DNA of 47,810 nt from contig JANWXD010000029.1 of the NCBI GenBank assembly GCA_025055455.1, positions 1 through 47,810 on the forward strand. Reading direction: 5' to 3'. Of the stretch, positions 9,097-12,757 are shown in pieces; the first letter of the stretch is position 1, and the number at the start of each line of letters is the position of its first letter. The notes beneath the pieces were generated by a model. The model saw only the letters and a list, made by a program, of their open reading frames with translations. It had not been told where the DNA came from and ran no database searches. Both the position numbers and the translations under genes were made by a program. Source of the DNA: Bryobacteraceae bacterium. Its GTDB lineage: Bacteria; Acidobacteriota; Terriglobia; Bryobacterales; Bryobacteraceae.

Positions 9097-10380
9097 ATGT
9101 ATGATCTGGCGTATTTTCGGGCCAACTTGGACGAGATTGCTCGCCGGCTGGCGACGCGCGGCCTGGCGCTCGACGGGGACAAGTTCCGCGACCTCGATGC
9201 GCGGCGCCGTGCCGCCATTACGGAAGCCGAACGGCTGCGCGCACAGCGCAACGCCGAAACAGCGGAAATCGCCCGGTTGCGCCAACTCGGCGAGGACACG
9301 AGCGGGCGCCAGCAGAAGGTCCGCGAGCTGGCCGGGCGGATCAGCGCGCTGGAGGAGGAGGCCAAGCGGCTCGACGAGCAATTTCGCCAGGAACTTGCGG
9401 GTGTTCCCAATCTTCCCCACGAATCCGTGCCCGTCGGGGCCGACGAAACCGGCAATGTCGAAGTGCGCCGCTGGGGACGCCCGCGAGAATTCGATTTCGT
9501 GCCCAAGGCGCACTGGGACCTAGGCCCGGAATTAGGGATTCTCGATTTCGAGCGGGCCGCCAAGATCACGGGGGCGCGTTTTGCGGTGTACTGGGATCTC
9601 GGCGCGAAACTGGAACGGGCGCTGATCAATTTCATGCTCGACCTGCACACCCGCGAGCACGGCTATACGGAGGTTCTGCCCCCGTTTCTGATCAATTCCG
9701 CCAGCCTGTACGGCACGGGCCAGTTGCCGAAATTCGCCGGCGACCTGTTCAAATGCGAGAGCTACGACTTCTGGCTGGCGCCGACGGCGGAGGTGCCGGT
9801 GACGAACCTGTACCGGGACGAGACGCTCGAGGGCGACGCGCTGCCCATCAAGCTGTGCGCCTATACGCCCTGCTTCCGCAGCGAAGCCGGCTCGTACGGC
9901 AAGGACGTGCGTGGCATCATCCGCCAGCACCAGTTCCAAAAGGTGGAGCTGGTGAAATTCGCACGGCCGGAGCAAAGCTATGACGAGCTGGAGTCGCTGA
10001 CGCACGACGCCGAGCAGGTTTTGCGCCGGCTCCAGATTCCCTTCCGCACGGTGGCGCTGTGCACGGGCGATTTGGGTTTCGCCTCGGCGAAAACTTACGA
10101 CATCGAGGCGTGGCTTCCGGGCTTGGGAGCCTACAAAGAAATCTCTTCTTGTTCGAATTTCGAGGCGTTCCAGGCGCGCCGGGCCGGCATCCGGTTCCGG
10201 GCCGCAAAGGGGAAAACCGATTATGTCCACACGTTGAATGGCAGCGGTCTGGCGGTCGGACGCACCTGGGTGGCCATCGTGGAGAACTACCAGCAGCGTG
10301 ACGGCAGCGTGGTGATACCGGAGGCGCTGCGGCCCTATTTGAACGCCGAGTGCATCAGCCGGCAAGGGGTGCTCCGGTAA
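9097..10380 (+). CDS. serS: Serine--tRNA ligase
   Basis: A 427-residue class II aminoacyl-tRNA synthetase that charges tRNA(Ser). Residues ~1-110 are the long tRNA-binding coiled coil ([19 protein letters not shown], many Arg/Glu/Ala). The catalytic core follows with motif 2 ([20 protein letters not shown], near 265-284) and motif 3 ([17 protein letters not shown], near 385-401). The Ser-specific [10 protein letters not shown] segment is present. GGAG lies 11 nt upstream of the ATG. Length and motifs are complete. Confidence 0.97.
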
Positions 10381-10411
10381 GACGGGAGTGGGCCGGAAAC
10401 CGACGGTCACA

Positions 10412-10438
10412 GGCCAACGCAAGCTCGGGGCTGGCCGG
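10412..10438 (+). promoter_or_regulatory. Upstream arm of a possible antiterminator in the tail-like gene leader
   Basis: CGGGGCTGGCCGG (10426-10438) can pair with CCGGCCCGGCCCCG (10541-10554), the left side of the terminator, over 13 pairs with one bulged C and one G-U. The same segment can instead form a local hairpin, GGCCA (10412-10416) with TGGCC (10432-10436). The two pairings exclude each other, as in attenuators and riboswitches. Pieces such as CACAGGCCA and ACGCAAGC recall c-di-GMP-I aptamers in order, but the full consensus is not met, so no class is assigned. Confidence 0.4.
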
Positions 10439-10543
10439 TAACTTGGCTCGATCGGTGGAGTTAGCTCGGCGCAGGCCAATCTTTTCGGGATCGACGACGC
10501 CGGCTGACATGTCTAGACTGGAGCCGGAGGCAGTTCCCAGCCG

Positions 10544-10580
10544 GCCCGGCCCCGCAGGCGGGGCCGGGCGTTCGTGTTTT
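10544..10580 (+). terminator. Strong hairpin terminator ahead of the tail-like gene
   Basis: GCCCGGCCCCG (10544-10554) and CGGGGCCGGGC (10559-10569) form a perfect 11-bp stem with loop CAGG, followed by GTTCGTGTTTT. It lies 164 nt after the serS stop but only 11 nt before the GGAGG (10591-10595) of the next gene. It may simply end serS, or act as a conditional terminator for the downstream gene. Confidence 0.65.
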
Positions 10581-10600
10581 CCGACCCCTGGGAGGCGTTC

Positions 10601-12757
10601 ATGAGATTCTTGCGCGCGGCTGCGCTGAGTTTGGCGTGGACGGGCTCCGCCCTGGCGGCCCCACCGCTGACCACCATCGAGGACGTGCTCTACAAGGCCG
10701 ATGGCAAACCGTTTCACGGGCTGGCAGTGATCCAATGGAAAACGTTTCAAGCTGCCGACGGCTCGACGATCGCTACCAGCAGCTTGGCAGTGCCGGTCGT
10801 CAATGGGCTGTTGCGGGTGCAGCTGGTGCCGACCACGAATGCATCACCAGGCGCCTATTACACGGTGCGGTACCTGGCGGAGGGCCGGATTCAGTTCGAG
10901 GAGAGCTGGGCGGTGTCGCCGAGCCCGGTCCCATTGAAACTCAAAGACGTGCGTGTTGCCGGATCCGTGCCGGGGGGTTCGCCGGGCGGACCGCCGCCGA
11001 ACCCCCAGACGCAGATTCAAATCTCCGACGTTTTGGGTCTGTCTGAAGAGCTCGCCACACGGCCCCTGAAAGGTCCGGGCTACGCGCCCAACCGCGCAGC
11101 GATGATCAACCAGTTGGGCGAGTTGGAGGCCGTGGTGGGGAATTTGTCGGACTGCGTGCGAGTGGATGGCACGGCGGGACCTTGCGGCACGACCGGCAGC
11201 ACCGGCCCAGGTTTCGTGGACGGGGAAACCCCGGCGGGTCTGATCAACGGTTCCAACGCGACCTTCACGCTGGCCAACCCGCCGAGTCCGGGCTCGAGCT
11301 TGGCGCTCTACCGCAACGGGCTGCGGCAGCAGCAGGGACTGGATTACACCTTGAGCGGCAACACGATTACGTTTCTGCCCGGTGCGATTCCGCAGCCGGG
11401 CGACACGCTACTGGCTTCCTACCGGCTGGCGGACGCGGGAAACCCGTCGGGCCAGGCGGGCGGCCATCTGACCGGGACCTACCCGAATCCTCAGATTGCG
11501 CCGGGAGTGATTTCCGACGTGAACATTTCCGATGTGGCGGGGATCCGGGAGTCGAAGCTGGCTTTGAACTTTCCGACGCACTCCAATGCCAACGACCCGA
11601 CCGCCGGCGAGAAGGCAGCACTGGCGGGTACGGCGGGAACCCCGTCGGCGACGAACCGCTACGTGACGGACCAAGATCCACGGTTGAGCAACGCGCGGAC
11701 GCCGACGCCGCATGGGCTGCTGAGCGCCAGCCACAGCGACACGACGCCGGGCAGTCCGACGCGTGGGGATCTGATCGTGGCCGCGGGCAGTCCAGCGACC
11801 TGGACGCGGCTTCCGATCGGCCCGGCCAACCGCTGTCTGATGTCGAACGGATTCGACGCGATCTGGAACACGTGCTTGTACACCGGATTCAGCGCCGGTT
11901 CCGTCCCTTTCGTCGACTCCAGCGGACTGCTGGCGCAAAACAACACCCGGCTTTACTGGGACAACAACAACCGGCGCCTGTCGGTGGGAAATAATCTCGC
12001 CGGCGCCACCTTGTACGTGTACGACGCACTCAGCGCGACCGGCCTGACCTCGCTGGTCGTGCGGGCCGGACAGGGACAGGGAACCACGCCGTTGCAGACG
12101 TGGCTGAATTCCAGCGGGGCGGAGCTGGCGCGTGTGGATGCTTCCGGGAACTTCACCGGGGCGTCGTTTACCGCGGCCACGACGAGTTCGCGCGCCGCCT
12201 GGCGAGATACGGGGCTCGCCGGCGATCCCGGCGTCGTGGCGAATGGCGATACGTGGTACAACTCGGCGGTGCAAGCGCGCAAGACGGCGGAGGCGGGCCA
12301 AGTCCACACGCTCCCGCAGGTGATCTGTAGCAGCACCGGCACGGCCACGAGTTCCACGGGTCTGACGCGCTTAGGCAGCTGCACGGTGCCCGGAAACTAT
12401 TTGAGGCCCGGCGACCGGGTGACCATCGACTTCCACTTTTCCCACGAAGGCACGGCCGTCGGTTTCACGGTGGAGGTGCGTTGGGGCGCCACGACGCTGC
12501 TCGCGCGCAGCGCGTCGGCCGGCGAGACTCACGTGGCGGGGCGGGCGGAGGCCGGCGTGCACACGGCGGGAGCGGCTTGGAGCACGCAGAGCTGGGGCGC
12601 TTCATTGGCGCTCGCCACGTCGGTGGGTAATGCCTCCGACTCGCTGGCGGCGCCGCTCGTCGTCGACTTACTAGCCCGCATGGCCGGCCCTACCACGGAG
12701 ACGGTCACCTTGCGGAATTTCACTGTTCTCCGTTATCCGGCACAGGCCAATCCGTGA
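10601..12757 (+). CDS. Secreted protein with phage-tail-fibre-like modules
   Basis: A 718-residue protein with a Sec signal peptide (MRFLRAAALSLAWTGSALAA). Residues ~22-120 form a beta-sandwich-like domain. Then come modules typical of phage and environmental tail-fibre or collar proteins: LALYRNGLRQQQGLDYTLSG with ALYRNG, GGHLTGTYPNPQIAPGVISD, DPRLSNARTPTPHGLLSASHSDT followed by GSPTRGDLIVAAGSPATWTRL, and LTSLVVRAGQGQGTTPLQTW. The last ~170 residues form a Ser/Thr-rich beta domain. The start at 10601 has GGAGG 5 nt upstream. The role is unknown: a surface adhesin or appendage tip is plausible because a Flp pilin gene follows by 111 nt. No phage head, tail or lysis genes flank it. Confidence 0.75.
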   Translation: MRFLRAAALSLAWTGSALAAPPLTTIEDVLYKADGKPFHGLAVIQWKTFQAADGSTIATSSLAVPVVNGLLRVQLVPTTNASPGAYYTVRYLAEGRIQFEESWAVSPSPVPLKLKDVRVAGSVPGGSPGGPPPNPQTQIQISDVLGLSEELATRPLKGPGYAPNRAAMINQLGELEAVVGNLSDCVRVDGTAGPCGTTGSTGPGFVDGETPAGLINGSNATFTLANPPSPGSSLALYRNGLRQQQGLDYTLSGNTITFLPGAIPQPGDTLLASYRLADAGNPSGQAGGHLTGTYPNPQIAPGVISDVNISDVAGIRESKLALNFPTHSNANDPTAGEKAALAGTAGTPSATNRYVTDQDPRLSNARTPTPHGLLSASHSDTTPGSPTRGDLIVAAGSPATWTRLPIGPANRCLMSNGFDAIWNTCLYTGFSAGSVPFVDSSGLLAQNNTRLYWDNNNRRLSVGNNLAGATLYVYDALSATGLTSLVVRAGQGQGTTPLQTWLNSSGAELARVDASGNFTGASFTAATTSSRAAWRDTGLAGDPGVVANGDTWYNSAVQARKTAEAGQVHTLPQVICSSTGTATSSTGLTRLGSCTVPGNYLRPGDRVTIDFHFSHEGTAVGFTVEVRWGATTLLARSASAGETHVAGRAEAGVHTAGAAWSTQSWGASLALATSVGNASDSLAAPLVVDLLARMAGPTTETVTLRNFTVLRYPAQANP

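Follow-up and report, generated by a model that had tools for sequence, protein, structure and literature searches.

The window, as we call the whole stretch of DNA analysed here (47,810 bp, positions 1 to 47,810 of contig JANWXD010000029.1 of a Bryobacteraceae bacterium), contains a gap of 220 bp between serS and the ATG, at position 10601, of a gene encoding a 718-aa protein (P0001). The two genes and the features of the gap are:

9097 to 10380, forward strand: serS, seryl-tRNA synthetase (Pfam tRNA-synt_2b and Seryl_tRNA_N), the upstream neighbour, outside the module
10404 to 10411, forward strand: T box CGGTCACA (consensus CRKTCACA), by family conservation; its TCACA begins 107 bp before the -10-like box
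10438 to 10444, forward strand: A box GTAACTT (consensus YAACY), its AA 21 bp ahead of the TT of the B box
10460 to 10465, forward strand: B box GTTAGC (consensus STTAGC), 54 bp ahead of the -10-like box
10514 to 10519, forward strand: TAGACT, -10-like box of the presumed promoter, by column conservation; the conserved stretch runs to about 10533
10525 to 10600, forward strand: predicted mRNA leader of about 75 nt, its start placed from the -10-like box
10544 to 10569, forward strand: GC hairpin of 11 pairs, all GC, with a loop of 4 nt, read from the sequence
10570 to 10580, forward strand: T-rich tract GTTCGTGTTTT after the hairpin, from the sequence letters
10590 to 10595, forward strand: ribosome binding site GGGAGG, from the sequence letters
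10601 to 12757, forward strand: P0001, 718-aa protein whose start resembles a signal peptide (by eye) and which has tail-fibre-like repeats

P0001 had no match in Pfam or NCBIfam and a weak match to a tail-fibre family in PHROG (E 0.00069); judged by eye, the product looks secreted. Matches to the protein were obtained in 40 of the 61 genomes searched, the window's own genome counted. P0001 is widespread in the family, some genomes having matches on more than one contig, and its neighbours vary; serS lies directly upstream in 19 of 81 loci (window counted).

Conserved boxes and their spacing

A scan of contigs confirmed 161 relatives of P0001, of which the best 80 of 161 were kept; the record titles assign them mainly to Bryobacterales, Bryobacteraceae, Solibacteraceae and unspecified Acidobacteria MAGs. 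The upstream regions compared numbered 80, one from the window and 79 from homologues; the core scan left out one locus with only 9 bases upstream (L099), and the first alignment was made without L001, a copy of the window, and L014, which has no upstream DNA. Four blocks are conserved: CRKTCACA (T box), YAACY (A box), STTAGC (B box), and a core, cTARACTGRRgnCGGnAGGaG, that begins with the -10-like TARACTG; the window carries an exact three-part match at 10407-10520. In 59 of the 80 regions the core scores above the 99% level of random windows, the scoring matrix having been trained on the very loci it was applied to; these had been seeded with the pattern TANA[CA]TG, so that the core letters are partly circular. 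The other 21 regions lack a core above threshold, and among the 59 that have one, the T box falls short of its threshold in 20. The first core letters are fixed in a set of 44 regions because these were picked for one TANA[CA]TG; conservation in this set extends about 13 nt further downstream, and its column conservation showed nothing resembling a -35 box. A TTGACA-like -35 (at least 4 of 6 matches) occurs at the right distance in 2 of 59 loci, with 10 and 6 at control offsets, in line with the missing or weak -35 box of an activator-dependent promoter. Core-like 17-mers were also sought in the window's own genome, but the 21 matches did not rise above chance, the reversed pattern giving 46.

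The distances between the boxes vary little, with the reservation that the T and B matrices were seeded with loci at the commonest spacings, which introduces circularity: the T box lies 103-108 bp from the core in 37 of 39 loci (T score > 7.4), the B box 51-54 bp from the core in 31 of the 35 loci above threshold (41-42 bp in three), T and B are 52-54 bp apart in 27 of 32 loci (T > 5, B > 6.1), and almost every aligned locus has 21 bp from the AA of the A box to the TT of the B box. The exceptions, which are few, seem to be shifts of about one or two helical turns. The distances of T and B to the core are both about one turn shorter in L035 (83 and 42 bp), L063 (84 and 42 bp) and L102 (83 and 41 bp), the T score being below 7.4 in L035 and L063; L111 has T at 97 and B at 53, and T distances of 97 (L092) and 95 (L068 and L103) were all obtained with T scores below threshold. 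One locus, L045, is at odds with turn steps, its B box being at 45 and its T and B boxes 59 apart. Distance changes by about a turn are what DNA-bound proteins need, and are hard to explain by an RNA fold.

Loci outside the P0001 family gave a less circular comparison. They were taken from matches to two models: R1, a sequence-only model from 36 sequences of the family, some from genomes later searched, and R2, a T-to-B model (matches listed up to E 10). From 61 extra loci, 60 of them hand-chosen from the R1 and R2 matches listed plus L117, 14 were left out (12 judged to belong to the P0001 family, L259 with no T box, and L260, cut short). In 37 of the remaining 47, part of which were drawn with the full model R1, core included, TANNNT stands 103-108 bp after TCAC, while control windows averaged 1.7 and never exceeded 4; among the other ten, four carry it at 94, 96, 101 or 117, and in six it is missing throughout 70-134. 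R2 contains no -10, and 16 of the 18 non-P0001 loci fetched with it have TANNNT 103-108 bp downstream.

At P0001 loci beside serS the core was found in 12 of 19 and the T box in 6 of 19, as against 47 and 33, respectively, of the other 61 usable loci; the module is thus rarer beside serS than elsewhere.

The leader and its hairpin

The leader below the -10-like box is structured (mean z -1.86, n=31, with 45% below -2; the window's own -1.48), whereas the 110-bp module above it folds like shuffles (mean z -0.31, n=58), so that structure begins at about the presumed transcription start. The preliminary description had placed an 11-bp terminator 11 nt before the ribosome binding site and, upstream of it, a promoter for the gene. 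The stem is real, but the distance was wrong, as 20 nt separate the stem, and 9 nt the T-rich tract, from the binding site; that the gene has its own promoter upstream is very probably correct, and the hairpin, which recurs in homologues, belongs to the leader. A 6-kb scan returned 4 terminator-like sites, with a shuffle mean of 5.2, and the hairpin of the window taken alone is therefore within chance, whereas its recurrence in homologues is beyond it: among 41 leaders (loci with at least 55 nt from core to start codon, window counted), a hairpin with a T-rich tract is present by rule in 20 and absent in 21, compared with 5.2 in shuffled leaders. A GC stem with a U tract thus recurs between promoter and gene, the window's own U tract being weak. 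The recurring hairpins vary in sequence, and a DNA search with the whole leader in 61 genomes recovered, apart from the leader used as query, two short matches, both within the hairpin. An alignment of the hairpin that used 22 of 32 hand-picked leaders, 10 being left out, yielded five consensus pairs, at four of which one or more sequences differ on both sides of the pair, and a small covariation term (-0.43).

This recurrence of the hairpin with its U-rich tract leaves room for two roles of the leader, simple attenuation or stabilisation, both compatible with a promoter upstream. In an attenuator without an aptamer, the hairpin would end some transcripts and be relieved by a factor or a translation-linked event. 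The excess of terminator-like hairpins and the pairs with two-sided change agree with this, as do the eight T that follow the stem in L034, whose protein is 69% identical. However, the core lies within 35 nt of the start codon in 16 of 59 loci, which leaves no room for a hairpin there, conserved alternative pairing was not found, and the first leader hairpin, which looked likely by eye, was not significant (mean z -0.58, 32 loci); the weak U tract of the window and the small covariation term count against it as well. We regard such an attenuator as a serious candidate whose chances are somewhat short of even. In phyla such as Acidobacteria, hardly any predicted attenuator has an associated function, according to PMC2965389.

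Four homologues with short leaders (L094, L095, L097, L101) have the ribosome binding site in or at the loop of a hairpin of 6-7 bp beside the start codon, with stem sequences that differ among them.

Alternatively, the hairpin may protect the mRNA and the U-rich tract aid ribosome binding or standby, for which the hairpin-protected leader of ompA is the model. The structured leaders, a pyrimidine-rich stretch directly ahead of the binding site in many of them, and the secreted look of the product are in line with such a leader, but a hairpin followed by T-rich DNA has the look of a terminator just as well, and we consider it conceivable rather than probable.

Other readings of the upstream boxes

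YAACY and STTAG might each supply one half of an alternative-sigma (ECF-type) promoter, YAACY-N16-STTAG, with a start near 10472, and TARACT would then be a second promoter or another element downstream. The 21 bp from AA to TT, kept in nearly all aligned loci, come close to the geometry of ECF promoters. The strict distance from STTA to TARACT described above is, however, unexpected for two independent promoters, which makes this reading improbable. The ECF41 promoter, as given in PMC3426412, has a -35 element TGTCACA followed by CGTC 16 +/- 1 bp on. That partner is seldom present here, CGTC or CGTA at 14-19 bp occurring in just 1 of 39 loci, and the ECF41 assignment was rejected.

The preliminary description had seen in 10381-10600 the mutually exclusive folds of a riboswitch or attenuator, 10426-10438 pairing either with the left arm of the terminator or with 10412-10416, and an aptamer with pieces like c-di-GMP-I. 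The alternative pairing can indeed be drawn, but with the left arm it does not exceed chance, as 59 of 1000 shuffles were as good; in 23 loci (window counted), the pairing with the left arm had a mean z of -0.15 with one locus below -2, i.e., no excess over dinucleotide shuffles of the upstream region, and the region 10381-10600 as a whole folds no better than shuffles (z -0.40). The absence of conserved pairing, named beforehand as the result that refutes exclusive folds, is what RNAalifold returned: 0 pairs in 36 aligned upstream regions, the sequences being anchored and diverse and L085 poorly aligned. As to the aptamer, GGTCACAG resembles part of that of c-di-GMP-I, yet no covariance-model match to c-di-GMP-I was obtained in the window at E up to 10. 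No Rfam family reached its threshold in the window, and relaxing the limit to E 10 brought up just two weak matches there, both on the opposite strand and neither to c-di-GMP-I; c-di-GMP-I was likewise absent at its gathering threshold from 20 homologous loci, and Rfam over the window and 40 other loci gave nothing relevant (one tRNA in L181). Moreover, both the supposed aptamer (about 10406-10440) and the supposed antiterminator (10426-10438) precede the -10-like box by about 75-110 bp and are therefore probably not transcribed from this promoter, so that the aptamer would be located above the transcription start, in a region held at fixed distances from that box. A riboswitch is not supported and has, in our estimate, very little chance of being right; the preliminary description as a whole is partly supported.

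Pairing in the RNA between CRGTC of the T box and GACTG of the core, whose letters are partly fixed by the seed, was dropped by eye because T boxes vary there (T for G in 8 of 30).

Reuse of the module, the promoter reading and known systems

R1 was built from sequences of the family, and its matches in the family are therefore partly by construction; the large searches with it used stricter filters. With the limit set loosely at E up to 1, where some matches must be expected by chance, at least 119 of 121 family genomes were matched; at E up to 0.01 the numbers were 35 of 61 family genomes (own genome counted) and 2 of 20 further members of the order. A sample of the phylum gave, at E up to 0.01, no match in 148 other genomes and a match in the window's own genome alone, which shows that false R1 matches are rare. 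Among those listed, a second match in the own genome is at G000:C68:83763-83868 (L186, E 0.002), with TANNNT 105 bp after TCAC and an open frame that has no Pfam match (146 residues tested).

The module is found again ahead of unrelated genes, at sites that are among the fetched loci and were selected from the matches listed. It precedes small multi-copy proteins with the motif STGPxTxxGK (the STGP family), which start NRxNAQxSTGPxTxxGK-like. Loci of this family (L174-L176, L178, L183, L188, L219-L232, L235, L237 and L238) carry the module in many cases. The STGP family had 30 matches in G086, 22 in G123 and none in the window's genome (E up to 0.001). A coordinate comparison placed an R2 match directly upstream of 19 of the 30 in G086, the weakest of these R2 matches having E 0.87. 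The copies tested gave one Pfam hit below the cut-off (COX4, 0.0085) and none in NCBIfam or PHROGs.

The module was also seen before HU-plus-TIR genes at L187, L245 and L251. In L251 the TIR part is TIR_2 by Pfam (E 1.8e-10), and PADLOC gave weak TIR matches to this piece as well; the HU part in all three and the TIR part in L187 and L245 appear so by eye from the letters. At L117, in another family of the order, the module stands before a gene that is ParB-like by eye and has no Pfam match. Three near-copies in G090 (L170, L172, L173) have it immediately ahead of an RNA-like sequence; this sequence contains a GGGTTCGAACCC stretch, had no Rfam match and is possibly a new small RNA. Various other frames follow it elsewhere, e.g., at L171, L177, L179, L180 and L181, and some of these sites may be due to chance.

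From the comparison of sequences, which yielded conserved boxes, fixed spacing, shifts close to whole turns, no RNA pairing upstream, reuse before other genes and a recurring hairpin, we read the region not as a riboswitch but as a phased promoter followed by a short leader, with a probability of roughly 0.78. The boxes at 10404-10411, 10438-10444 and 10460-10465 are putative sites for an activator or an array of activators on one face of the helix, which would take the place of a -35 box and set the polymerase at the -10-like TAGACT (10514-10519). Transcription would start near 10525-10528, and the leader of about 75 nt would then fold the GC hairpin at 10544-10569 with its U-rich tract ahead of the ribosome binding site; the hairpin may trim or tune read-through or protect the mRNA. 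Protein binding of the boxes, the start site, and a lowering or tuning of read-through by the hairpin are all three what we infer from these letters.

A more tentative extension, less likely than not, is that the module represents a promoter class of Bryobacteraceae and near relatives, in which one regulator acting over about 115 bp might co-control the secreted tail-fibre-like protein, the STGP family, the HU-plus-TIR genes and the RNA, the fibre gene having a leader attenuator in addition. To our knowledge, few regulatory sites have been described for Acidobacteriota. The module ties a surface-fibre-like gene to unrelated gene families and provides a handle for finding the regulator and its regulon, and it illustrates that a phased DNA module can pass for a riboswitch if one sequence alone is seen.

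Among the papers found on Acidobacteria or Solibacter promoters, start sites, riboswitches, motifs and ECF factors, no title or abstract opening describes the module. PMC2864571 names a candidate motif, 'Solibacter-1', given in its table without an Rfam accession, which may or may not be related to the module. The promoters of ECF41 sigma factors resemble it in their -35 TGTCACA, which is like CRKTCACA, but differ in the CGTC expected 16 bp downstream, not found here (CGTC or CGTA in 1 of 39 loci). With intrinsic-terminator attenuators it shares a terminator-like hairpin between the presumed promoter and the ribosome binding site, whereas an antiterminator fold was not found here and homologues with short leaders lack the room. 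The likeness to the c-di-GMP-I (GEMM) riboswitch consists of the GGTCACAG-like letters only; the module differs in that covariance matches and conserved pairs are absent here and the site is upstream of the -10-like box. We know of no activator whose sites match these boxes and distances. Class I and class III promoters of CRP are activator-dependent, with helically phased upstream sites and a poor or missing -35. The module is like them in its sites above the -10, in distance changes of about whole turns, and in having no TTGACA-like -35, but is distinguished by four boxes over about 115 bp and by its distribution, which within the genomes searched takes in one family of soil bacteria plus a few relatives from the same order.
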